A stretch of DNA of 13,636 nt from Halobacteriales archaeon QS_9_70_65 (GTDB taxonomy: Archaea > Halobacteriota > Halobacteria > Halobacteriales > Haloarculaceae), in NCBI GenBank assembly GCA_003023535.1, contig PXSC01000025.1, positions 1-13,636 of the forward strand. The letters are read 5' to 3'. Below, piece after piece: positions 1-11,295 of the stretch. The number at the start of each line of letters is the position of its first letter. The first letter of the stretch is position 1. The notes beneath the pieces were generated by a model. That model was not told the DNA's origin. It worked only from the letters and a program-made list of their open reading frames with translations, and searched no databases. Position numbers and translations under genes: made by a program.

Positions 1-520
1 GAAGGTCACGGGCGCCCGCTCGCGCGTCGAGAAGTTCAACCGCGGCTACGTCAAGCACAACGGCGAGCCCGCCGAGGAGATCGTCGACAGCGGCGTCGGC
101 ACCGCCGTCATGAAACTCGGCACCATCGGCGTCCGCGTGAAGATCATCCCGCCGAACGCGGAGCTGCCCGACGACTTCGAGGTGTACGAGGACGTCGAGG
201 TCGCCGAGTTCGTCGAGGAGCCGGACGGCGACGTCGAGGAGCTGCTCGAGAAGCCCGAGGAGGCCGAGGCCGAGTCGGTCGGCGCCGACCCCGAGGAGAT
301 CGTCGACACCAGCGCCGAGCCGCCCGACGAGGAGATCATCGACGAGGAGCTCGAGGAAGAACTCGTCGACGCCAACGGCGACGAGGTCGACGCGGCCGAC
401 GCGGCCGACGCTGCCGACGCGACCGGCGAGCCGGCGGAGGACCTCGACGAGGACGTCGAGGCGGAAGCCGCGGAGCTCGTCGAGGAGATGGAAGCCGAGA
501 CCGACGGGGAGGCCGAGTGA
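1..520 (+). CDS. rps3: 30S ribosomal protein uS3 (S3), 3' part
   Basis: The gene enters from the left edge; codons run from base 2 to the TGA at 518-520, giving 172 visible residues. uS3 sits at the mRNA entry side of the small-subunit head. Seen: the C-terminal domain with [19 protein letters not shown] and then [15 protein letters not shown], which is the family's conserved C-terminal block. The N-terminal KH domain lies outside the window. After about residue 55 comes a tail of roughly 115 residues that is almost entirely Asp, Glu, Ala and Val, including an Ala-Asp run ([14 protein letters not shown]) encoded by 9-bp repeats around 390-420. Long acidic tails on S3 are usual in haloarchaea, as I recall. 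One base separates the stop from the uL29 start, consistent with coupled translation. Identity is secure; only the 5' part is missing. Confidence 0.95.
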
Positions 521-521
521 G

Positions 522-731
522 ATGGCCATCCTGCGCGTCCAGGAGATCCGCGACATGACGCCCGCCGAGCGAGAGGCGGAGCTGGAGCAGCTGGAGACCG
601 AGCTGCTCAACGAGAAGGCGGTGCTGGCGGCCGGCGGCGCCCCGGAGAACCCGGGACGGATCGGCGAGCTGAAGCGCACCATCGCCCGCGTGAAGACGAT
701 CAGACGCGAGGAGGGCGATCTCGACGAATGA
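522..731 (+). CDS. rpl29: 50S ribosomal protein uL29 (L29)
   Basis: Small 69-residue protein of the large subunit that lies near the peptide exit tunnel. The sequence is two predicted helices: an N-terminal one ([20 protein letters not shown], continuing to about residue 32) and a C-terminal one containing [19 protein letters not shown], joined by an [10 protein letters not shown] turn. This is the antiparallel helical hairpin of the family at the family's usual length. The start ATG at 522 overlaps nothing but is one base after the rps3 stop. The gene ends in ATGA shared with rnp1 (728-731), so the two are probably translationally coupled. Position between rps3 and rnp1 is the standard haloarchaeal order. 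No anomaly seen. Confidence 0.95.
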
Positions 732-1021
732 CCCCCGAGTCGCTCGTCCGCCACGAACTGGCCGGCCTCGACGTCGAGGTCGCCGAATCGCCCAATCCCG
801 ACCTGGTCGGGGTAGCCGGGCGTGTCGTCGACGAGACGACCAACACGCTGCTGGTGGCGACGGACGACGGGGTCAAACAGGTGCCGAAGGCGGCGGCGAC
901 GTTCCGGTTCCGTCTCGACGGCGAGACGCGTGGCACCACGCGCGTCGTCGTCGACGGCGACCGACTGCTCGCCCGACCGGCCCGACGCACCGAAACGAAA
1001 GGAGGTTCACTATGGCAATAG
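728..1021 (+). CDS. rnp1: Ribonuclease P protein component 1 (Rpp29/Pop4 family)
   Basis: Protein subunit of archaeal RNase P, which removes 5' leaders from pre-tRNAs together with the catalytic RNA. At 97 residues it is a single Sm-like beta-barrel of the Rpp29 family. Seen: [10 protein letters not shown] near the N-terminus, then [20 protein letters not shown] (about residues 23-42), the [12 protein letters not shown] strand pair, and a C-terminal [13 protein letters not shown] ending. The GxVxxETxNTL stretch is the family hallmark. The gene overlaps uL29 by four bases (ATGA) and its 3' end overlaps the start of uS17 by ten bases. Embedding rnp1 in the spc operon is a known haloarchaeal arrangement that ties tRNA processing to ribosome synthesis. 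Confidence 0.92.
1001..1006 (+). promoter_or_regulatory. Shine-Dalgarno site for uS17
   Basis: GGAGGT lies six bases before the ATG at 1012, inside the last codons of rnp1. It complements the CCUCC at the 3' end of archaeal 16S rRNA. It supports ATG 1012 as the uS17 start and indicates that uS17 can be initiated independently of rnp1 termination. Similar GGAGGTGA sites precede uL14 (1348-1355) and uL5 (2842-2849). Confidence 0.7.
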
Positions 1022-1362
1022 GACTCGACGTACCACGGCCTCCGGAGCCCGACAACCCGGAGGAGTACGACTACGAGACGTGTCCCTTCTACGGTGAGCT
1101 GTCCGTCCGCGGACAGGTCATCGAGGGGGAAATCGTCTCGACCGACATGGACCGTACGGTCGTCGTCGAGCGAGAGTACGACGTGAAGGTACCCAAGTAC
1201 GACCGCCAGATGAAGCGGCGGTCGCGGATTCCGGCGCACACGCCGGAGGTACTGGAGCCGCTCTCGGTCGGCGACGACGTGAAGATAGCGGAGACACGAC
1301 CGCTGTCGAAGACGAAACACCACGTGGTCGTCTCGGTCGACGAGAACGGAGGTGACGACTGA
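1012..1362 (+). CDS. rps17: 30S ribosomal protein uS17 (S17)
   Basis: Primary 16S rRNA-binding protein of the small-subunit body, 116 residues, the normal length for archaeal S17 with its N-terminal extension. Seen: an N-terminal extension with LDVPRPPEP and [20 protein letters not shown], then the OB-fold core with [18 protein letters not shown] (about residues 38-55), [17 protein letters not shown], and the C-terminal signature [19 protein letters not shown]. The [15 protein letters not shown] stretch is the classical S17 pattern. The start is supported by GGAGGT upstream. The stop TGA shares its A with the ATG of uL14 (TGATG at 1360-1364). Regulation is presumably that of the whole operon. 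No anomaly. Confidence 0.96.
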
Positions 1363-1760
1363 TGGAGGCGCTCAACGCCGACGTCACGCAGGGCCTCGAG
1401 AAGGGGTCGCTGGTCACCTGTGCCGACAACACGGGTGCCCGGGAGCTGAAGGTCGTCTCCGTTGCGGGGTACTCCGGCACGAAGAACCGCCACCCGAAGG
1501 CGGGACTCGGCGACAAGGTGACCGTCTCGGTCACCAAGGGGACCCCCGAGATGCGCCGGCAGGTGCTGGAGGCGGTCGTCATCCGCCAGCGAAAGCCCAT
1601 CCGTCGACCGGACGGCACGCGACTGAAGTTCGAGGACAACGCGGCCGTCGTCGTCGACGAGAACGAGGACCCCCGCGGTACCGAACTCAAAGGCCCCATC
1701 GCCCGCGAGGTCGCCGAGCGGTTCGGCACCATCGCGAGCGCGGCGACGATGATAGTATGA
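1362..1760 (+). CDS. rpl14: 50S ribosomal protein uL14 (L14)
   Basis: Large-subunit protein at the subunit interface, where it contributes to an intersubunit bridge and to the GTPase-factor side. 132 residues, matching archaeal L14. Seen: [20 protein letters not shown] (about residues 23-42), the highly conserved N-terminal beta-barrel motif; then [40 protein letters not shown], and the C-terminal [13 protein letters not shown], all diagnostic. A GGAGGTGA site at 1348-1355, six bases before ATG 1362, fits the start. The gene overlaps uS17 by one base and uL24 by four bases (ATGA, 1757-1760), so it is in a tightly coupled translation chain. Nothing unusual. Confidence 0.97.
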
Positions 1761-2113
1761 CACGACAACCACACGAACAGCGCAACCGACAGGAGCGCGC
1801 CCCGCTGCACGAAAAGCAGAAACAGGTCCGGGCGCCGCTGGCCTCGGAACTCCGCGAGGAGTACGGCCGGCGGTCGGTCCGGGTCAACGTCGGCGACACC
1901 GTCGAGATCCAGCGCGGCGACTTCGCCGGCGAGACCGCCGAGGTCGTCGACGTCGACCTCCGGGCGACGGAGATCGAAGTCGAGGACGTCACGATCGAAA
2001 CGGCCGACGGCGAGGAGGTGCCGCGGGCGCTCGACGCCAGCAACGTGCAGGTGACGGAGCTGGACCTCGAAGACGAGCGGCGCGAGACGCGCCTCGAGGA
2101 GGATGACGAATGA
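1757..2113 (+). CDS. rpl24: 50S ribosomal protein uL24 (L24)
   Basis: Assembly-initiating 23S rRNA-binding protein located close to the exit tunnel; 118 residues from the ATG at 1757. That start is chosen because it overlaps the uL14 stop as ATGA, the pattern used throughout this operon, and because the N-terminus [20 protein letters not shown] matches the archaeal family. A longer frame upstream (from 1352) is only the out-of-frame shadow of uL14. Seen: a basic N-terminal arm, the [23 protein letters not shown] motif (about residues 39-58), then a beta-rich acidic second half ending in [14 protein letters not shown]. It overlaps eS4 by four bases. No anomaly. Confidence 0.95.
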
Positions 2114-2859
2114 GCAACCACCAGAAGCGACTCTCGGTTCCGAACTCGTGGCCGGTCGAACGGAAGGCCGAAACGTACACGACGAAGGCGGGCGCGGGCC
2201 CGCACGGCGAGGACGGCGTGCCGCTTTTGATCGTCCTGCGGGACGTGCTCGGCTACGCCGACTCGACAAAGGAAGCACGGTACGCCCTCGACCAGGACAG
2301 CGTGCTGGTCAACGGCACGCCGGCCGCCGACGAGCGCCGCCCCATCGGGATGTTCGACATCCTGGCGTTCCGGGAGCGGGAGGAGTACTACCGCGTCTTC
2401 CCGGACGAGGGCGGTCGGCTCTCGCTGACGCCGGTCGACGCCGACGCCGCGGGCTCGAAGCTCGGGAAGATCGTCGGCAAGCGACAGATCCCCGGCGGCG
2501 ACACACAGCTGACGCTGCACGACGGCCGGACGCTGCTCGTCGACGACGACGCGAGCTACGGCAGCAACGACTCCGTCGTCGTCGTTTCCGACGACGAGGA
2601 AGTCGTCGCGCACTTCACCTACGAGGAGGGTGCGCTGGTGACGGCGGTCCGAGGGGCCCACGCCGGCCGGATCGGCCGCATCGAGGAGATCCAGGTGACG
2701 CCCGGCTCGTCGGACAACAACGTTCGCATCGAGGACTTCGAGGGCGACGACGACTTCGAGACGATCGAGGAGTACGTCGTCGTCATCGACGAGAACTTCG
2801 TGGAGGGCGGCGCCGGCGACGACGAGGCCGACGCCGACGACGGAGGTGACGACGAATGA
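2110..2859 (+). CDS. rps4e: 30S ribosomal protein eS4 (S4e)
   Basis: Archaeal/eukaryotic-type small-subunit protein, 249 residues. Seen: N-terminal [20 protein letters not shown] and KAGAGPHG (residues ~4-33), the family signature; an S4-like RNA-binding segment with [18 protein letters not shown] and [19 protein letters not shown] (~42-83); a central domain with [13 protein letters not shown]; and a C-terminal KOW-type stretch [20 protein letters not shown]. It ends in [15 protein letters not shown] followed by a short acidic tail. The start overlaps the uL24 stop (ATGA) and the end overlaps the uL5 start (ATGA). Length and order are as expected for haloarchaea. No anomaly seen. Confidence 0.96.
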
Positions 2860-3410
2860 GCTCGGAGTCGGAGTCCGACGCCGGCGAGTTCCACGAGATG
2901 CGGGAGCCGGACATCGAGAAGGTCGTCGTCCACATGGGGATCGGCCGCGGCGGCGAGCCGCTGGCGCAGGCCGAGGAGATCCTCGGCGAGATCACGGGTC
3001 AGCAGCCGGTCCGGACGGTCGCCGAGCGCACCATCCAGGACTTCGGGGTCCGGCAGGGCGACCCCATCGGCGCGAAAGTGACGCTGCGCGGCGACGACGC
3101 CGAGTCGTTCCTCGAGACGTCGCTGCCGCTCGCCGAGGTCTCGGCGTCGCAGTTCGACGAGACCGGCAACTTCAGCTTCGGTATCGAGGAACACACCGAC
3201 TTCCCGAGCCAGGAGTACGACCCCGAGATCGGCATCTACGGGCTGGACGTGACGGTGAACCTGGTTCGGCCGGGCTACCGGGTGAGCAAGCGGGACAAGA
3301 TGTCCCGGTCGATCCCCGCCCGGCACCGGCTGAACGCCGAGGACGCGGTCGCGTTCCTCGAATCGAACTTCGGCGTCGACGTCGACGTCGACGTGGAGGG
3401 CGAACGATGA
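2856..3410 (+). CDS. rpl5: 50S ribosomal protein uL5 (L5)
   Basis: 5S rRNA-binding protein of the central protuberance, working with uL18, which is encoded further down the same operon. 184 residues. Seen: [20 protein letters not shown] near the N-terminus, [20 protein letters not shown] (about residues 50-69) with the conserved [28 protein letters not shown] and [18 protein letters not shown], then RRxx-type [13 protein letters not shown] near the end. These are standard archaeal L5 blocks. GGAGGTGA at 2842-2849 lies six bases before the ATG. The 3' end reads as alternating Val-Asp codons ([10 protein letters not shown]) before the ATGA overlap with uS14. Length and motifs are normal. Confidence 0.96.
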
Positions 3411-3574
3411 CGGAACAGGAGACGGGCGAACGGGCCGCCAAGCGGACCGGCGGGCTGGAAGCGTGTCAGCGCTGCGGGCGCGAGCAGGGACTCGTCGGCA
3501 AGTACGACATCTGGCTCTGCCGGCAGTGTTTCCGCGAGGTCGCCCGCGGCATGGGATTCAGGAAGTACAGCTAA
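3407..3574 (+). CDS. rps14: 30S ribosomal protein uS14, zinc-binding type
   Basis: Small-subunit head protein of 55 residues, the size of the zinc-containing archaeal S14. Four cysteines, C20 and C23 (CQRC) and C38 and C41 (CRQC), are spaced as a zinc ribbon, followed by the conserved end [14 protein letters not shown]. The start at 3407 is preferred because it overlaps the uL5 stop (ATGA) and is preceded by GGAGGG; the much longer frame upstream of it is a shadow of uL5. Two bases separate its TAA from the uS8 start. The gene is short and easily missed, but motif and position make the identification firm. Confidence 0.96.
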
Positions 3575-3576
3575 CG

Positions 3577-3969
3577 ATGGCGGACAACGATCCACTGGCC
3601 AGCGCGCTGTCGGGACTCGACAACGCCGAGAGCGTCGGCCACCTCGACCAGACGATACAGCCCGCCTCGAACGAGATCGGCTCGGTGCTCGAGGTCCTCT
3701 ACGACCGCGGGTACATCGACGGATTCCAGTTCGTCGAAAACGGCAAAGCCGGCCGGTTCGAGGTCGAACTGAAAGGAGCGATCAACGAGTGTGGCACGGT
3801 CAAGCCCCGCTACTCGGCGGGCGCCGACGAGTTCGAGAAGTGGGAAAAGCGGTTCCTCCCCGCCCGCGACTACGGGACGCTCGTCGTCACGACCAGCCAC
3901 GGCATCATGAGTCACTACGACGCCCGCGATGCGGGCGTCGGTGGCCAGGTGATCGCATACGTCTACTGA
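3577..3969 (+). CDS. rps8: 30S ribosomal protein uS8 (S8)
   Basis: Primary 16S rRNA-binding protein of the small-subunit platform, 130 residues, exactly the archaeal S8 size. Seen: MADNDPLASALSGLDNAESV at the N-terminus, PASNEIGSVLEVLYDRGYID (about residues 28-47), the central VELKGAINECGTVKPRYS, and the C-terminal RDYGTLVVTTSHGIMSHYDA followed by GVGGQVIAYVY. The TTSHGIMSH motif is the RNA-binding S8 signature. ATG 3577 is chosen as it follows the uS14 TAA by two bases; the upstream open frame overlaps uS14 out of phase. The bacterial homologue represses its own operon; whether that happens here cannot be seen. No anomaly. Confidence 0.96.
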   Translation: MADNDPLASALSGLDNAESVGHLDQTIQPASNEIGSVLEVLYDRGYIDGFQFVENGKAGRFEVELKGAINECGTVKPRYSAGADEFEKWEKRFLPARDYGTLVVTTSHGIMSHYDARDAGVGGQVIAYVY

Positions 3970-3971
3970 CG

Positions 3972-4544
3972 ATGCGCGAGGAAATCGACATACCGGACGA
4001 GGTCACGGCGACGATCGACCACCTCGAGTTGACCGTCGAGGGGCCGAACGGGAGCGTCACGCGACGGCTCTGGTACCCCGACATCGCGGTCGACGTCGAG
4101 AGCGTTCCGGCTCCGCCGGAACGAGAAGACGGTGAAACCGTCGAGGCGGTCGTCGTCGAGACCCGATCCGACGACGCCGAGACCCGTGCGACGGTCGGCA
4201 CCTTCCGCAGCCACGTCACCAACATGATCCACGGCGTGACCGAGGGCTGGGAGTACGAGATGGAGGTCTTCTACTCCCACTTCCCGATGCAGGTCTCCGT
4301 GGAGGGCGGCGAGATCGTCATCGAGAACTTCCTCGGGGAGACGGCCCCCCGGCGGACGCCGGTCCGCGGCGACACGGAGGTCTCGGTCGACGGCGAGGCG
4401 CTGACGGTCCACGGCCCGAGCATCGAGGACGTCGGCCAGACGGCGGCCGACATCGAACAGCTGACCCGCGTCCCCGACAAGGACACGCGCGTCTTCCAGG
4501 ACGGCGTCTACATCACGGGGACGCCCGAGCGAGGTGAAGTCTGA
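3972..4544 (+). CDS. rpl6: 50S ribosomal protein uL6 (L6)
   Basis: Large-subunit protein beside the sarcin-ricin loop and factor-binding region; 190 residues. Seen: two L6 repeats. The N-terminal part has [19 protein letters not shown] and [20 protein letters not shown]; the second has [34 protein letters not shown], then [20 protein letters not shown] and [11 protein letters not shown], which is the L6 C-terminal signature. Between IAVDVES and the VETRSDD strand there are about a dozen extra residues ([13 protein letters not shown]) compared with the haloarchaeal L6 I remember. This is probably a surface hairpin extension. ATG 3972 follows the uS8 stop by two bases. Overlaps eL32 by one base. 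Confidence 0.95.
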
Positions 4545-5578
4545 TGACGGACGAAGACGAGCACGAAGAACTGACGGACATCAGTGGCATCGGCGAGGCG
4601 AAGGCCGAGTCGCTCCGGGAGGCCGGCTTCGAGTCCGTCGCGGACCTCGCGGCGGCCGACCAGGACGACCTCGCGGCGGCCGACGGCATCAGCGACGCGC
4701 TGGCGGCTCGCATCCGGGCCGACGTCGGCGACCTCGAGGTCTCCGAGGAGACCGACGCCGAGGTCGACGAAGAGGACGACGCCGAGGTCGACGCCGACGC
4801 GGAAGGCGAAGACGCCGGAACGGAGACGGACGCCGACACGGACGACGAAGACGACGAGGCCGACGAGGCCGACGACGTCCCCACCGAGCTGGTGGAGATC
4901 GCCGGCGTCGGCGAGGCGAAGGCGGAGTCGCTCCGGGAGGCCGGCTTCGACTCGGTCGACGACGTTCGCGGCGCCGACCAATCGGCGCTGGCAGACGCCG
5001 AGGGCATCGGTAACGCCCTGGCGGCCCGCATCAAGGCCGACGTCGGCGACCTCGAGGTCTCCGAGGAGACCGACGCCGAGGTCGAAGAGGAGAAGCCGGA
5101 GTCCGAGGCCGACGTCGACGAGGACGTCGAGACCGAGCTGCGGCCCCGCGGGCTCGTCGAGAAGACGCCCGAGCTGACCGACGAGGAAAAGCGCCTGCTC
5201 GAGCGGCGACGGAGCGAGGGCAAGCCGCAGTTCAACCGGCAGGACTACCACGTCAAAAAGCGGACGCCGGAGTCGTGGCGCAGCCCGCGCGGTCAGCTGT
5301 CGAAGCAGCGCCGCGGCGTGAAGGGCAAGGGCCCGACGGTCGAGGCGGGCTTCCGGACGCCGACGGCGGCCCGCGGCAAGCACCCCAGCGGCTTCGAGGA
5401 GGTCCGCGTCGAGAACGTCGACGACCTCGACGGCGTCGACGGCGACCGGGAGGCCGTCCGGATCGGCTCGACCGTCGGCGCTCGCAAGCGCGAGCGCATC
5501 GAGGAGGTCGCCGAGGAGGAAGAGATTCGCGTGCTCAACCCGACGTACGTCGAAGTGGAGGTGGAGGCCGAAGAATGA
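4544..5578 (+). CDS. rpl32e: 50S ribosomal protein eL32 (L32e) with duplicated N-terminal helix-hairpin-helix module
   Basis: Archaeal/eukaryotic large-subunit protein. The C-terminal core (from about residue 205) is typical: [60 protein letters not shown] and the [11 protein letters not shown] ending. Haloarchaeal eL32 normally carries one Rad51-like helix-hairpin-helix extension and is about 240 residues, from memory; this one has 344. Residues ~9-77 and ~115-183 are two copies of that module, each with [13 protein letters not shown] followed by a second GI-containing hairpin and [16 protein letters not shown]. They are joined by a ~38-residue acidic linker. The copies align with a constant 318-bp offset. 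The C-terminal copy resembles the usual haloarchaeal module more. Start is TGATG-coupled to uL6; stop overlaps eL19. Confidence 0.95.
4568..4773 (+). repeat. Direct repeat, copy 1 of HhH module in eL32
   Basis: First copy of a roughly 205-bp in-frame direct repeat; copy 2 lies 318 bp downstream. The opening part (from GCGAGGCGAA at 4593) and the closing part (from about 4721, encoding [15 protein letters not shown]) are nearly or fully identical at base level, while the middle has drifted ([19 protein letters not shown] in copy 1). Confidence 0.85.
4886..5091 (+). repeat. Direct repeat, copy 2 of HhH module in eL32
   Basis: Second copy of the direct repeat, offset exactly 318 bp (106 codons) from copy 1; GCGAGGCGAA recurs at 4911. 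Encodes [20 protein letters not shown], a middle with [18 protein letters not shown], and the same [15 protein letters not shown] end. Its middle matches the single-copy haloarchaeal module from memory, so this is probably the ancestral copy. Confidence 0.85.
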
Positions 5579-6024
5579 CCGACCTGAAGGCACAGAAGCG
5601 ACTGGCGGCGGACATCCTCGGCGTCGGCGAGAACCGCGTCCGGCTCGACCCCGACGAACAGGGCGAGATCGCCGACGCGATCACCCGCGACGACGTGCGG
5701 GAGCTGATCGACGAGGGGGTCATCGAGGCGAAGACGACCGAGGGCAACTCCCGCGGTCGGGCCCGCGAGCGCGACGAGAAGCGCGCCTACGGCCACCGGA
5801 AGGGACACGGCTCCCGGAAGGGGACGGCCGGCGGGCGACAGGACGAGAAAGGCGACTGGCAGAGCCGCATCCGCGCCCAGCGCGAGGAGCTGCGCGAGCT
5901 GCGGGACGGCGGCGACATCACCCGCTCGCAGTACCGGGAGCTGTACGACCAGGCCAGCGGCGGCGAGTTCGACAGTCTCGCGGACCTGCGGCGGTACATC
6001 GACGACAACTACGGTGATCAATGA
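5575..6024 (+). CDS. rpl19e: 50S ribosomal protein eL19 (L19e)
   Basis: Archaeal/eukaryotic large-subunit protein that contributes to an intersubunit bridge; 149 residues, the usual archaeal size. Seen: N-terminal [20 protein letters not shown] (about residues 4-23), then [20 protein letters not shown] and [20 protein letters not shown], the basic middle [20 protein letters not shown], and a C-terminal helix with [20 protein letters not shown] and [20 protein letters not shown]. All are diagnostic eL19 blocks. ATG 5575 overlaps the eL32 stop (ATGA), which decides the start over a longer out-of-phase frame. Ends two codons past the GGTGATC that serves as ribosome-binding site for uL18. No anomaly. 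Confidence 0.96.
6013..6019 (+). promoter_or_regulatory. Extended Shine-Dalgarno match before uL18
   Basis: GGTGATC, complementary to the GAUCACC just inside the 16S rRNA 3' end of haloarchaea, lies within the final codons of eL19. It is one base before ATG 6021 but four before ATG 6024. The spacing, and the conserved [11 protein letters not shown]-terminus, favour 6024 as the true uL18 start. Confidence 0.55.
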
Positions 6025-6578
6025 TGGCGACAGGACCACGATACAAGGTGCCGATGCGGCGTCGCCGCGAGGCCCGAACGGACTACCACCAGAGGTTGCG
6101 CCTGCTGAAATCCGGCAAACCCCGTCTGGTCGCTCGCAAGAGCAACAGCCACACCAGGGCGCAGCTGATCGTCACGGGTCCGCAGGGCGACGAGACCGTC
6201 GTGAGCGCGACCTCGGGGGACCTCGAGGCGTTCGGCTGGGAGGCGCCGACGGGCAACCTGCCCGCGGCCTACCTGACCGGACTGCTGGCCGGCGTGCGGG
6301 CCGTCGACGCCGGCCTCGAGGAGGCGGTGCTCGACATCGGGCTCAACACGGCGACGCCCGGCAACAAGGTGTTCGCGGTACAGGAAGGTGCGATCGACGC
6401 AGGGCTGGAGATTCCGCACAACGAGTCGGTGTTCGCCGACCCGGAGCGGACCCGTGGCTCCCACATCGCGGCGTACGCCGAGGACCTCGACGAGGACCTC
6501 TACGGCGGCGACTTCGACGCGACGGAGCTGCCGGCCCACTTCGACGAGGTGCGAGAGCGCCTGGAGGACGAACTATGA
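6024..6578 (+). CDS. rpl18: 50S ribosomal protein uL18 (L18)
   Basis: 5S rRNA-binding protein of the central protuberance and partner of uL5; 184 residues from ATG 6024. An ATG also stands at 6021 and would add one Met; 6024 is preferred because it gives the conserved [20 protein letters not shown] and sits in a TGATG overlap with the eL19 stop. Seen: [20 protein letters not shown] (about residues 24-43), [40 protein letters not shown] and [15 protein letters not shown], all strongly conserved in haloarchaeal L18, then [20 protein letters not shown] and [15 protein letters not shown]. Length normal. Overlaps the uS5 start by four bases (ATGA). Confidence 0.96.
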
Positions 6579-7091
6579 GCAACGGATGGGAGCCGCGAAC
6601 GCGGCTCGGACGACGCGTCGCAGAGGGCGAGATAACGTCGATGCGGGACGCCCTGCGGACGGGGCTGCCGCTGAAGGAACCGGAGATCGTCGACCAGCTC
6701 CTACCGGGGCTGGAGGACGAGGTGCTGGACATCAACATGGTCCAGCGGATGACCGACTCCGGTCGTCGGGTGAAGTTCCGGTGTGTCATCGTCGTCGGCA
6801 ACCGCGACGGCTTCGTCGGCTACGCGCAGGGCCGCGACGACCAGGTCGGCGGCGCGATCCAGCTCCGTCGAGGTCGAGCTCCAGCCCGCCCCGCGCGGGC
6901 TGGGGCTGGCCGGCGGCGAAACCGTCCGGCACGTGCTGGAGCTGGCCGGCATCGAGGACATCTGGACGCGCTCGTCGGGCACCACCCGGACCACGGTCAA
7001 CTTCGCGAAGGCGACGTTCAACGCCCTGACGGCGACCGCCGAGTCCCGGGTGCCCGAGCGCACCCTCGAGAAGCGCGAGGTGGTCGAGTGA
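6575..7091 (+). pseudogene. rps5: 30S ribosomal protein uS5, internal deletion with frameshift
   Basis: uS5 is an essential small-subunit protein near the mRNA channel. Frame A (6575-6862, 96 codons) is normal: [53 protein letters not shown] and ending [11 protein letters not shown]. Frame B (6864-7091, 75 codons and TGA) resumes as [20 protein letters not shown] and runs through [15 protein letters not shown] to REVVE. In haloarchaeal uS5 about 39 residues lie between these points (KAIDVAKLNIIDV..., the Cys-rich CGCGRPHT loop and ...TTGKAG); they are absent, and one leftover base at 6863 shifts the frame. The total is 171 codons against about 212 expected from memory. Read as given, the product would be truncated after residue 96 with a random tail. 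A sequencing or assembly error is the most likely cause. The start overlaps the uL18 stop. Confidence 0.9.
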
Positions 7092-7097
7092 CATCTT
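7092..7097. repeat. Terminal inverted match CATCTT (left)
   Basis: CATCTT follows directly on the rps5 TGA and is the reverse complement of AAGATG at 7475-7480, so the insert is bounded by a 6-bp inverted match. The right copy contains the ATG start codon of uL30. Six bases is short enough to be chance. Confidence 0.4.
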
Positions 7098-7099
7098 CG

Positions 7100-7140
7100 C
7101 CCGCCGTAAACGGCGGGGCTTCCAACGCAGTTGGAACCCC
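7100..7140. repeat. Left-end double hairpin of the insert
   Basis: Two adjacent perfect stems. The first is CCCGCCG / CGGCGGG with a TAAA loop (7100-7117). The second is TTCCAAC / GTTGGAA with a GCA loop (7120-7136), extended by GGGG 7115-7118 against CCCC 7137-7140 across a bulged C. The two stems compete for the shared G run, so they may be alternative structures. Confidence 0.75.
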
Positions 7141-7189
7141 GGCCCGGTGCCGAGGGAGGTTTCGGGGCGTGACGTTCCGAGCGTCGGAC

Positions 7190-7345
7190 GGCAGGGTTCC
7201 TGCCTTGGCCCGAAGTGCCCCGCGGTGCTGTCACGGGCACTCCCATCCGCACGCGTGTCATCGCCGTCCGGTTTCAGCGGCCGGCTCTCACCCACGCACA
7301 CGACCGTATGCGTGATAATTCCTCCGGCTGGGGTTCGTCCCAGCC
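7190..7345. repeat. Internal hairpins of the insert
   Basis: Four further perfect inverted repeats lie in the middle of the insert: GGCAGG / CCTGCC with a 3-base loop (7190-7204), GTGCCC / GGGCAC (7215-7240), CACGCA / TGCGTG (7293-7314), and GGCTGGG / CCCAGCC with a 6-base loop (7326-7345). This density is much higher than in the surrounding coding DNA and suggests a folded RNA or single-stranded DNA. Confidence 0.65.
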
Positions 7346-7376
7346 ACCGACAGCAGTTGCACAGTACCGTGTCGAC

Positions 7377-7475
7377 TTCCTCCCCGTCCCCAGAAATCGG
7401 AGATTTCTGGTGTGCGAACGAATCGCAGAGCGATTCGTTAACGCCGCAAGCGACGGGGTTTCCGCCTCGGAGGAA
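7377..7475. repeat. Right-end cruciform of the insert
   Basis: An outer stem pairs TTCCTCC (7377-7383) with GGAGGAA (7469-7475); alternatively CCCCGTC (7382-7388) pairs with GACGGGG (7452-7458). Inside are two perfect hairpins: CCAGAAATC / GATTTCTGG (7390-7410, GGA loop) and AACGAATCGC / GCGATTCGTT (7417-7439, AGA loop). The A/T-rich arms differ clearly from the surrounding GC-rich operon. Confidence 0.8.
7469..7473 (+). promoter_or_regulatory. Shine-Dalgarno site for uL30 supplied by the insert
   Basis: GGAGG stands four bases before ATG 7478. It belongs to the right-end outer stem (pairs with TTCCTCC at 7377-7383), so the ribosome-binding site could be sequestered when that stem forms. The presumed former site, GAGGTGG at about 7077-7083 near the end of rps5, is now almost 400 bases away. 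Confidence 0.6.
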
Positions 7476-7477
7476 AG

Positions 7478-7942
7478 ATGATCGCCGTCGTCCAGGTCCG
7501 CGGCGAGGTCAACCAGGAAGGCGGCATCGAGGACACCCTCGGGATGTTGAACCTCGGCCGCGTCAACCACGCCACCCTCGTCCCGGACACCGACGCCTAC
7601 CGCGGCATGGTCACGAAGGTCAACGACTACGTCGCCCACGGCGAGCCGTCCGAGGACATCGTCGCGCTGCTACTGGAGCGCCGCGCGGAACCCGCCGAGG
7701 GCGCCGGCGACGTCGACGATGAATGGGTCGCCGAGCACACCGACCACGACGGCGTGTCGGCGCTCGCGGCGGCGCTGCTCGCCGAGGAGACGACGCTACA
7801 GGAGCAGGGACTGTCGCCGACGCTGCGGCTCCATCCGCCGCGGGGCGGCCACGACGGGCTGAAGAACCCGACGGTCGACGGCGGCCAGCTCGGCCCCCAC
7901 TCGACCGAGGAGATCGACGCGCTACTGGAGGAGATGCGATAA
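7478..7942 (+). CDS. rpl30: 50S ribosomal protein uL30 (L30)
   Basis: Large-subunit protein, 154 residues, the usual length in haloarchaea. Seen: N-terminal AVVQVRGEVNQEGGIEDTLG (about residues 3-22), then MLNLGRVNHATLVPDTDAYR and GMVTKVNDYVAHGEPSEDIV, the core ferredoxin-like L30 fold; the archaeal C-terminal extension includes LSPTLRLHPPRGGHDGLKNP and VDGGQLGPHSTEEIDALLEE. ATG 7478 gives the conserved N-terminus and is preceded by GGAGG. Unlike every other gene in the operon it is not adjacent to its upstream neighbour: the 386-bp insert lies between uS5 and this gene. Its stop codon overlaps the uL15 start by one base (TAATG). The coding sequence itself is intact. Confidence 0.96.
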   Translation: MIAVVQVRGEVNQEGGIEDTLGMLNLGRVNHATLVPDTDAYRGMVTKVNDYVAHGEPSEDIVALLLERRAEPAEGAGDVDDEWVAEHTDHDGVSALAAALLAEETTLQEQGLSPTLRLHPPRGGHDGLKNPTVDGGQLGPHSTEEIDALLEEMR

Positions 7943-8499
7943 TGACTTCGAAGAAACGACGACAGCGCGGCTCCCGCACGCACGGCGGCGGCTCCCACAA
8001 GAACCGCCGCGGCGCCGGCCACCGCGGCGGGCGCGGGCGTGCCGGCCGCGACAAACACGAGTTCCACAGCTACGAACCGCTCGGCAAGTCCGGCTTCGAC
8101 CGCCCCCAGAAGGTCACGCGGGACGTCGAAACGATCAACCTCCGGACGCTCGACGAGGATGCGGTCGTCCTGGCCGCGGAGGGCGTCGCCGAGGAGACCG
8201 ACGACGGCTACCGGGTCGACGCCCGCGACGTCGTCGAGGACGGCTTCGAGGTCGACGTCGTGAAGGTGCTCGGCGGCGGCCGCGTCCACGACGAGCTGGA
8301 GGTCGTCGCCGACGACTTCTCGGCGGACGCCGCCGAGACGCTCGAAGCCGCCGGCGGCGCGGCCGTCCTCTCGGAGCGCGCCGAGTCGTCGGAAGACGCC
8401 TCGAGCAGCCGGACGGAATCCGGCGACGGGGAGGAGCTGGCCGCCGAGGCGGAGGAAGCCGACAGAGATACAACGGGCGAGGCCAACGAGGAAGCGTAA
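7942..8499 (+). CDS. rpl15: 50S ribosomal protein uL15 (L15)
   Basis: Early-assembling 23S rRNA-binding protein, 185 residues. Seen: a very basic, glycine-rich N-terminal arm KKRRQRGSRTHGGGSHKNRR and GAGHRGGRGRAGRDKHEF (residues 4-41), which in L15 threads into rRNA; SYEPLGKSGFDRPQKV; then a folded domain with DVVKVLGGGRVHDELEVVAD and ETLEAAGGAAVLS. The tail after residue ~150 is acidic and low in complexity and makes the protein about 20 residues longer than the Haloarcula L15 I remember. Start overlaps uL30 (TAATG); the secY ATG follows its TAA with no gap. No disruption seen. Confidence 0.95.
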   Translation: MTSKKRRQRGSRTHGGGSHKNRRGAGHRGGRGRAGRDKHEFHSYEPLGKSGFDRPQKVTRDVETINLRTLDEDAVVLAAEGVAEETDDGYRVDARDVVEDGFEVDVVKVLGGGRVHDELEVVADDFSADAAETLEAAGGAAVLSERAESSEDASSSRTESGDGEELAAEAEEADRDTTGEANEEA

Positions 8500-10014
8500 A
8501 TGAGCTGGAAGGAGGCCGCCGAACCGGTACTGACGCGCCTGCCCGCCGTCCAGCGCCCGACGGGCCACGTTCCGTTCAAGCGCAAGCTCGGCTGGACGGC
8601 CGGCGTGCTGGTGCTGTATTTCTTTCTGACGAACGTGCCCATCTACGGGCTGCAGGGCGAGGGATCGGACATCTTCGGCCAGTTTCGGTCCATCCTGGGC
8701 GGTAACCAGGGCTCGCTGTTGCAGGTCGGCATCGGGCCGATCGTCACGGCGTCCATCGTGCTGCAGCTGCTCGGCGGCGCGGACCTCCTCGGGCTGAACA
8801 CCGAGGAGAACCCCCGCGATCAGGCGCTGTACCAGGGTCTCCAGAAAACGCTCGTGGTCGTGATGACGGCGCTGACGGCGGCCCCGATGGTGTTCGCCGG
8901 GTTTCTCGAGCCGTCCGGCGACGTAGCGCTCCGCCTCGGCATCAGCACGACCGCGCTGCAGTGGCTGATGTTCCTGCAGATCTTTGTCGGCGGGATGATG
9001 ATCCTCTACATGGACGAGATCATCTCCAAGTGGGGGGTCGGCTCCGGGATCGGGCTGTTCATCATCGCCGGGGTGAGCCAGCGACTCATCGGCGGGTTCT
9101 TCACCTGGAGCGGCATCGGCCAGGAGGGGTACATCGGCTTCTTCCCGCAGTGGTACAATATTTTCACGGGACAGATCGACGTCGGGTCGCCGCTGACGAT
9201 GTCGGGGCTATCGAACCTCTTCCTCGACGAGGGTCGGCTTCTCGCGCTCATCACGACGTTTCTCATCTTCGTGGTGGTCGTCTACGCCGAGTCGGTTCGC
9301 GTCGAAATTCCGCTGAGCCACGCCCGCGTGAAGGGCGCCCGCGGCCGGTTCCCGGTGAAGCTCATCTACGCCAGCGTCCTGCCGATGATCCTCGTGCGGG
9401 CGCTACAGGCCAACATCCAATTCGTGGGCCGCATCCTCTACTCCCGGGCGCCGCAGGGCGAGACGGCGATCGTACTGTTCGGCCGGCGGCTGCCGTGGCT
9501 CGGGCAGTACACCACCGGCGGCGGCAGAAACTTCGCCAGCCCGACCGGCGGGCTGTTCTACTACCTGGCGCCGATCTACTCGCCGGACGACTGGATGTGG
9601 TGGCTCGGCCGGACTGCCGCCGAACCGTGGCAGATCATGCTCCGGGTCGGCGTCGACCTGACGTTCATGATCGTCGGCGGCGGCATCTTCGCCATCTTCT
9701 GGGTCGAGACGACGGGCATGGGCCCGCGGGCGACCGCAAAGCAGATCCAGAACTCCGGGATGCAGATCCCCGGCTTCCGGCAGTCGCCGGGCGTCACCGA
9801 GAAGGTTCTGGAGCGGTACATCCCGCAGGTGACCGTCCTCGGCGGCGCCCTCGTCGGGCTGTTGGCTGTGGCGGCGAACATGCTCGGTACCATCGGCCAG
9901 GTCACCGGCACCGGCCTGCTGCTGACCGTCTCCATCACCTACAAGCTCTACGAGGAAATCGCCGAAGAGCAGCTGATGGAGATGCACCCGATGATGCGGG
10001 AGATGTTCGGCTAG
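8500..10014 (+). CDS. secY: Preprotein translocase subunit SecY
   Basis: Channel-forming subunit of the Sec translocon in the cytoplasmic membrane; 504 residues with about ten hydrophobic membrane spans. Seen: an N-terminal amphipathic part with LTRLPAVQRPTGHVPFKRKL before TM1 (GVLVLYFFLTNVPIYGL), the plug region around FGQFRSILGGNQGSLLQVGI and TM2 with GPIVTASIVLQLLGGADLLG. The cytoplasmic loop RVEIPLSHARVKGARGRFPV (~268-287) is followed by IYASVLPMILVRALQANIQF; the later loop is GMGPRATAKQIQNSGMQIPG (~405-424). The C-terminus LYEEIAEEQLMEMHPMMREM is the archaeal ending. Its position at the end of the ribosomal operon is standard. The stop codon lies in a terminator-like hairpin. Intact. Confidence 0.97.
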   Translation: MSWKEAAEPVLTRLPAVQRPTGHVPFKRKLGWTAGVLVLYFFLTNVPIYGLQGEGSDIFGQFRSILGGNQGSLLQVGIGPIVTASIVLQLLGGADLLGLNTEENPRDQALYQGLQKTLVVVMTALTAAPMVFAGFLEPSGDVALRLGISTTALQWLMFLQIFVGGMMILYMDEIISKWGVGSGIGLFIIAGVSQRLIGGFFTWSGIGQEGYIGFFPQWYNIFTGQIDVGSPLTMSGLSNLFLDEGRLLALITTFLIFVVVVYAESVRVEIPLSHARVKGARGRFPVKLIYASVLPMILVRALQANIQFVGRILYSRAPQGETAIVLFGRRLPWLGQYTTGGGRNFASPTGGLFYYLAPIYSPDDWMWWLGRTAAEPWQIMLRVGVDLTFMIVGGGIFAIFWVETTGMGPRATAKQIQNSGMQIPGFRQSPGVTEKVLERYIPQVTVLGGALVGLLAVAANMLGTIGQVTGTGLLLTVSITYKLYEEIAEEQLMEMHPMMREMFG

Positions 10015-10030
10015 AGAAGCCGAACATCTC
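10000..10030 (+). terminator. Perfect 13-bp hairpin at the secY stop codon
   Basis: GAGATGTTCGGCT (10000-10012) is exactly complementary to AGCCGAACATCTC (10018-10030), with a five-base AGAGA loop. The upstream arm encodes the last SecY residues and the TAG begins at the arm's last base. No long T tract follows, so it may act as an mRNA 3'-end stabiliser or processing site instead of a classical terminator. The next gene converges on it from the other strand, which makes a transcript end here sensible. The remaining bases to 10155 show no gene. Confidence 0.65.
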
Positions 10031-10155
10031 TCTGCCCCGTTGAGAATCGACGACTCCTATTCGTCCGCTGCCGGCTCGAAGCCGCGACGCCGTCGCACCG
10101 CGTGAACGTCCTGCGACCCGAGGCGGCGCGGAAAGAGCCGAGCCCGACGGCCCCG

Positions 10156-11295
10156 CTACGATCGGAGCGGGTCGGCGACGGTACTGACGCCGGAGAACGT
10201 GAAGCGCGTGCCGTCGTCGACGGTGACTTCGCCCTGCCAGCCGTGGCCGGAGACGACCCGCTCGACGATGAGGAGCCCGAGCCGGGAGGAATCGTAGTCG
10301 CCGTCGAAGGTCGAGTCGGCGACGTCGGCCGGCAGGCCGGGGCCGTCGTCGGCGACGACGAACCCGTCGTCGGTCCCCCGGACCGTCACCGTCGTCTCCG
10401 GGCCGCAGTGCTCGTCGACGTTCCGAAAGAGGTTTTCGAAGAGTTGCCGGAGCTGGGACCCGTCCGCGAGCAGCTCCCGGTCGGACTCGACGACGAGCGT
10501 CGCGGCCTCGGGGTCGACGATCGCCCAGGCGTCGCGGGCGACGGCGCCCAGCCCCACCGGCGTCCGCTCGCCGACGTCGGTGCCGTTACGAGCGAGCGCG
10601 AGCGTCTCGGAGATGAGCGTCTCCATCCGGTCGGTGGCGTCGAGCACCTGCCGGAGGTCCTCGGCGTCCGATTCCGAGATGGCGTCGGACTCCAGGACGA
10701 GTTCGGTGTAGCCGCGGACGGACGTCAGTGGGGTACGGAGGTCGTGTGCGAGGACGCCCGCGAACTCGTCCAGTCGCTCGTTCCGTCTATCCAGCGCCCG
10801 GTGGTGGCGTTCTCGCTCCAGCTCGTGGCCGATCCACCGCGTCAGCAGCCGCACGAACCGCCGTTCGTCGTCGGTGAAGTCGGTCTCCCGGGGCGTCTCG
10901 TCGAAGAAACACAGCGTTCCGTAGGTTTCGCCGTCGACCAGCACCGGCGCGCCGACGTAACACCGGACGTCCGTGGTCTCCCGGGCGCGGTCGTCCCGGA
11001 GCGGCGAGTCGTCGGCGTCGACGACCGTCAGAACCCGCCGGTCGCCGACGACGTGGCGGCACCACTGCTCGTCGAGGTCGTGAACCGAACCGGCGACGTA
11101 GTCGCCGCTCGAGACCGTCGAGTCGACGATCTCGTAGTCGCCGTCGTCGACGTGCGACAGCAGACCGCCGGAGACGTCGAGACGGTCCCGGCCGACGGTT
11201 ATCGTCCTCGCTATCTTCTCCTCCAGCGACAGCGACGGATCGGCCCCGAGCTCGTAGAGATCCCGGAAGTACTCCGTCGCGCTGGACTGCTCCAT
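10156..11295 (-). CDS. Soluble GAF-domain sensor histidine kinase
   Basis: Cytoplasmic two-component kinase of 379 residues without membrane segments. Residues ~15-160 form a GAF-like sensor (CYVGAPVLVDGETYGTLCFF is the typical late GAF strand pair; ERRFVRLLTRWIGHELE is its closing helix). HisKA box FAGVLAHDLRTPLTSVRGYT carries the phospho-acceptor His184. The HATPase domain shows the N box QLFENLFRNVDEH (~284-296), G1 DDGPGLP (316-322), and G2 RLGLLIVERVVSGHGWQGEV. No receiver domain is fused and no response regulator lies nearby, so partner and signal are unknown; many haloarchaeal kinases are such orphans. It converges on secY. Start ATG at 11295 is supported by a TATA-like box about 25 bases upstream. 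Confidence 0.9.
   Translation of the reverse strand: MEQSSATEYFRDLYELGADPSLSLEEKIARTITVGRDRLDVSGGLLSHVDDGDYEIVDSTVSSGDYVAGSVHDLDEQWCRHVVGDRRVLTVVDADDSPLRDDRARETTDVRCYVGAPVLVDGETYGTLCFFDETPRETDFTDDERRFVRLLTRWIGHELERERHHRALDRRNERLDEFAGVLAHDLRTPLTSVRGYTELVLESDAISESDAEDLRQVLDATDRMETLISETLALARNGTDVGERTPVGLGAVARDAWAIVDPEAATLVVESDRELLADGSQLRQLFENLFRNVDEHCGPETTVTVRGTDDGFVVADDGPGLPADVADSTFDGDYDSSRLGLLIVERVVSGHGWQGEVTVDDGTRFTFSGVSTVADPLRS

Follow-up and report, generated by a model that had tools for sequence, protein, structure and literature searches.

The gene for ribosomal protein uS5 in the window, a stretch of 13,636 nucleotides that holds a haloarchaeal ribosomal-protein operon, is broken at its centre. 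We conclude, with a probability of about 0.9, that the lesion is an assembly artefact, a false join made in a short-read metagenome assembly; this reading is strongly supported, though not proven, and in the living cell uS5 is most likely intact, at about 210 residues. Several lines of evidence favor it: the flanks of the lesion are 96-99% identical to the intact genes of two relatives (G001 and G014); like losses occur in a related series of metagenome-assembled genomes (MAGs); the closest named relative, QS_8_69_73 (G014), has two undersized N gaps near by; G015 and G009 have damage in the same part of uS5; and, upstream of the junction, the 25-mers of the operon that are shared by the most relatives stop about 100 bp away from it.

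The broken gene and its intact relatives

The remnants of the uS5 reading frame (Table 1) span 6575-7091 on the + strand, the ATG at 6575 overlapping the stop codon of uL18. A functional uS5 has a single open frame over both S5 domains. In the window, the Pfam N-terminal domain (PF00333) is represented by only positions 1-51 of 65, in frame A, and the C-terminal domain (PF03719) lies apart from it in frame B, whose translated stop ends at 7091. The lone C at 6863 is a single leftover base between frame A, which runs to 6862, and frame B, which starts at 6864: translation thus confirms to the base the original prediction of a frame switch at 6862/6863 with one spare base. Since both ends of the junction have one G in common, the cut may lie one base earlier.

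Table 1. Features of the uS5 locus, in positions of the window
Feature	Position	Strand	Evidence
uS5 5' part, residues 1-96, frame A	6575..6862	+	translation; PF00333 positions 1-51 of 65; DNA identity to relatives
uS5 junction, 116 bp absent between 6862 and 6863	6862..6864	+	flank distances; G014 and G001 sequences
uS5 3' part, S136 (numbering of the intact protein) to stop, frame B	6863..7091	+	translation; PF03719; DNA identity to relatives
386-bp repeated element between uS5 and uL30	7092..7477		full-length copy in G014; partial copies in congeners

The distance from flank to flank is 116 bp longer in intact relatives than in the window, in all 12 of the best 12 rows, which represent five genomes (G001, G008, G013, G014 and G017), some as several loci. 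The absent DNA encodes 39 residues, counted by hand on the intact relatives' protein, and these include the loop that had been placed in the missing stretch; the size first proposed for the loss, about 39 residues or 116-118 bp, was therefore right. The nearest genome among the relatives is G001, which has 35% of sampled 31-mers in common with the window. Over the 285 bp of 5' uS5, the window shows 97.9% DNA identity to both G001 and G014, and in the 3' part 98.7% to G014 and 96.1% to G001; uS5 is intact in both genomes. In gene order, in both flanking parts and in its identity to these two relatives, the broken gene is like haloarchaeal uS5 (PF00333 plus PF03719), from which it differs by the 39 absent residues and the broken frame. 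The junction sequence of the window, with up to three mismatches, occurs in none of the 20 genomes of the genus. DNA present in relatives has dropped out here, and the relatives do not show the join itself, as would be expected of a metagenome scaffolding error. A displacement of the missing segment within the window was rejected, as the best ungapped match to the 116 bp on either strand covers only 56/116.

Elsewhere in positions 1-10013, indels relative to G001 and G014 come in multiples of three, or as groups of small neighbouring changes whose total is again a multiple of three (in the eL32 extension and in secY), with the exception of the 386-bp insert between uS5 and uL30. These other indels being frame-neutral or intergenic, uS5 carries the sole frame-breaking lesion of the region. 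A stretch of uL5 that is absent from the G014 comparison corresponds to an N gap in G014, and G001 aligns across it. The eL32 gene (4544-5578) encodes a protein extended at its N-terminus by a long acidic stretch, in which two similar blocks (SLREAGF...) cross-align from genome to genome.

The 386-bp insert had been thought to raise the chance of a rearranged locus, a link for which we find no support. The insert is a repeated element in its own right: it has matches in 14 of the 20 genus genomes, full-length in G014 (84%) and partial elsewhere, and in G014 uS5 and uL30 overlap directly at a site without insert. Its presence requires no rearrangement of uS5. The element ends in GGAGGAAAG directly before the uL30 ATG, and presumably resembles a MITE of the IS200/IS605 kind. 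Further downstream, after secY (10014-11097), G001 is about 1.7 kb longer than the window, with which G014 aligns, and adk was not noticed 3' of secY in the window. Loss of adk was rejected as a second lesion of the window: G014 aligns through, so the difference is not window-specific.

Losses and gaps in related assemblies

To set a base rate, 12 operon genes were surveyed in 80 named loci, leaving out uS5, which had served as bait, and counting as a loss any frame change whose net deficit is 30 bp or more. In the eight loci of the PXQ/PXR/PXS MAG series (titled PXQZ or with names beginning PXR or PXS), 3 of 96 gene-loci carry such frame-breaking losses. They measure 76-146 bp and lie in two of the eight loci: QS_1_69_70 (L077) lacks 146 bp of uL6 and 76 bp of secY, and QS_9_67_17 (L086) lacks 118 bp of secY, with no Ns at any of the three joins. 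None was seen in 90 gene-loci of 10 other MAG loci, among which L101 was placed because of its bin name, nor in 726 gene-loci of the remaining 62 loci, where the frame changes without loss were +2 in L114 and +101 in L144. Fisher's test gives p = 0.0015 if gene-loci are treated as independent, which they are not, because two of the three losses sit in one MAG. The secY of QS_1_69_70 also lacks about 32 residues in frame. Losses without Ns lie at 4245, 8723 and 9668 in L077 and at 8705 in L086, the secY losses of the two loci sharing a starting point after LGWTAG. Outside the base-rate counts, stops interrupt some uL5 and uL15 alignments, uL15 shows gaps of 16-21 residues, and there are two insertions.

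Where Ns are present, their number can fall well short of the sequence they replace. In QS_8_69_73, 78 Ns stand for 159 bp inside uL5 and, further along, 96 Ns stand for 194 bp; in G009, 10 Ns stand for 115 bp. Gaps are not always undersized, as 190 Ns stand for 190 bp in L106 and 166 for 115 bp in L031 (one comparator each). If estimates run 80-100 bp below the real distance, a gap that truly measures about 100 bp would become zero and its contigs would be joined without Ns.

Damage to the same stretch of uS5 recurs in other assemblies of the genus. In the congener G015, 59 residues (177 bp, counted by hand) are lost without a change of frame, from a point 24 bp upstream of the junction point of the window. 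Within the order sample, 288 of 293 genomes (254/254 of good quality) have a uS5 match, with match coverage read for part of them. Two matching genomes in this table have a best E-value weaker than 1e-80, and both carry uS5 split over two contigs: the G009 pieces hold residues 1-69 and 155-207, residues 70-154 being missing at the split, and the G061 pieces overlap (residues 3-118 and 76-209).

How a false join may have arisen

A short-read metagenome assembler probably broke off its contigs within the conserved centre of uS5 or shortly past it, where haloarchaea of the same community have identical DNA; the two flanking contigs were then joined, probably in a scaffolding step, without the 116 bp and without Ns. 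To judge from its nearest kin, the window probably comes from such a short-read, scaffolded assembly. The QS MAGs bear a scaffold naming style that we take to link them to an Atacama project. Together with the organisms and the sample type, this style suggests that they derive from the project of PMC5532433, which names BioProject PRJNA351262; a literature name search for a publication naming the QS MAGs turned up one unrelated paper and gave no support for the tie. In that project, Halobacteriales and Bacteroidetes are dominant in Atacama salt crusts, and sequencing used 100-base paired reads, 600-1000 bp libraries and IDBA_UD scaffolds (PMC5532433). Scaffolding errors of IDBA-UD are, in another study, recognised by read coverage (PMC5079060). 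The window is like the errors described there in that two contigs are apparently wrongly joined over a short region, here the centre of an essential gene, and its kin assemblies show like losses and mis-sized N gaps.

The distribution of shared DNA is consistent with contig ends near this site. The most widely common 25-mers of the operon (16/17 loci) start at 7087-7097 of the G001 locus and end upstream of the junction (7222); 4% of stretches of equal length attain this peak value, and a second profile, of 11 loci on G014, peaks at the same place. In a mixed community, such widely shared DNA would tangle the assembly graph. Sharing of the missing 116 bp themselves is only slightly above average (1.36 vs 0.96) and forms no peak, and 25-mer sharing does not peak at the losses in uL6 and secY, 0.51-0.72 of random places doing as well. 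A cause in shared DNA thus fits uS5 alone, and shared k-mers were rejected as a general cause of losses. A strong hairpin that had been skipped over was likewise rejected, the DNA fold of the intact region being no stronger than shuffles (z 0.19). As for a microhomology deletion, the junction ends have only the final G in common, by eye, which is uninformative.

Could the lesion be real?

The original prediction had left three options, namely an artefact, a mixed allele and an intact copy elsewhere. The artefact is favored here, and a second copy is unlikely by analogy with the relatives. A PF00333 profile search of 40 relatives gave a match at E 0.001 in 39 and exactly one above the cut-off in 38; G007, which is 67% complete, has no match, and none of the 40 has two above the cut-off. 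A fixed deletion backed by an intact uS5 elsewhere in the genome is therefore extremely improbable. Weak second matches (positions 35-63), below the cut-off, lie at G013:C20:32045-32131 and G015:C82:6848-6934, in 242-residue frames.

Haloarchaea are polyploid. A deletion in part of the population, or in some chromosome copies of a cell, with intact alleles alongside, could thus persist for a time even in an essential gene, and the normal conservation of both flanks is what a recent event would leave. We nevertheless consider it very unlikely: the junction is absent from all 20 genus genomes, comparable losses, seen in MAGs from a single series, are absent from all 62 records that belong to neither MAG group, and it leaves unexplained why the assembly shows the defective allele. 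It is also most unlikely that the broken gene persists as a standing allele, with intact chromosome copies or a second gene making up for it, and that deletions recur at the centre of uS5 within the genus, as the window and G015 might suggest. If real, the lesion would be a striking case of tolerated damage to a universal ribosomal protein.

That a short or recoded uS5 works without its central loop and is read via a frameshift finds some encouragement in G015, which encodes a shortened uS5 in one frame. The ends of the G015 loss differ from those of the window, however, and no frameshift can restore 39 residues whose DNA is not in the window. Protein searches for uS5 were followed through the best 120 of 1892 and the best 120 of 3681 matches; of the 120 listed in the first of these sets, 111 are 204-219 residues long (hand count). 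Ten sequences, picked mostly for odd length or domains, were inspected: one has a loss with a frameshift (P0083), two have in-frame losses (P0076, P0113), two late frameshifts (P0031, P0047) and four shortened ends (P0007, P0061, P0075, P0118), two being named 'partial' by the source. The tenth, P0001, is 320 residues long and carries the conserved central block of uS5 twice in tandem. The join of the window is absent from all 10, and because these odd forms differ mutually, they are probably errors. A family sharing the same short uS5 was rejected, since the junction is absent from the 20 genus genomes and none was recognised among the matches listed (best 120 of 1892, best 120 of 3681; 10 sequences inspected). 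A working short uS5 is thus hardly credible.

The false join preferred here carries a warning beyond this genome: in public MAGs of haloarchaea, roughly 75-180 bp of an essential gene can be lost with no Ns to mark the place, and such silent losses may mislead studies of ribosomal proteins that deal with gene loss, pangenomes or phylogeny.
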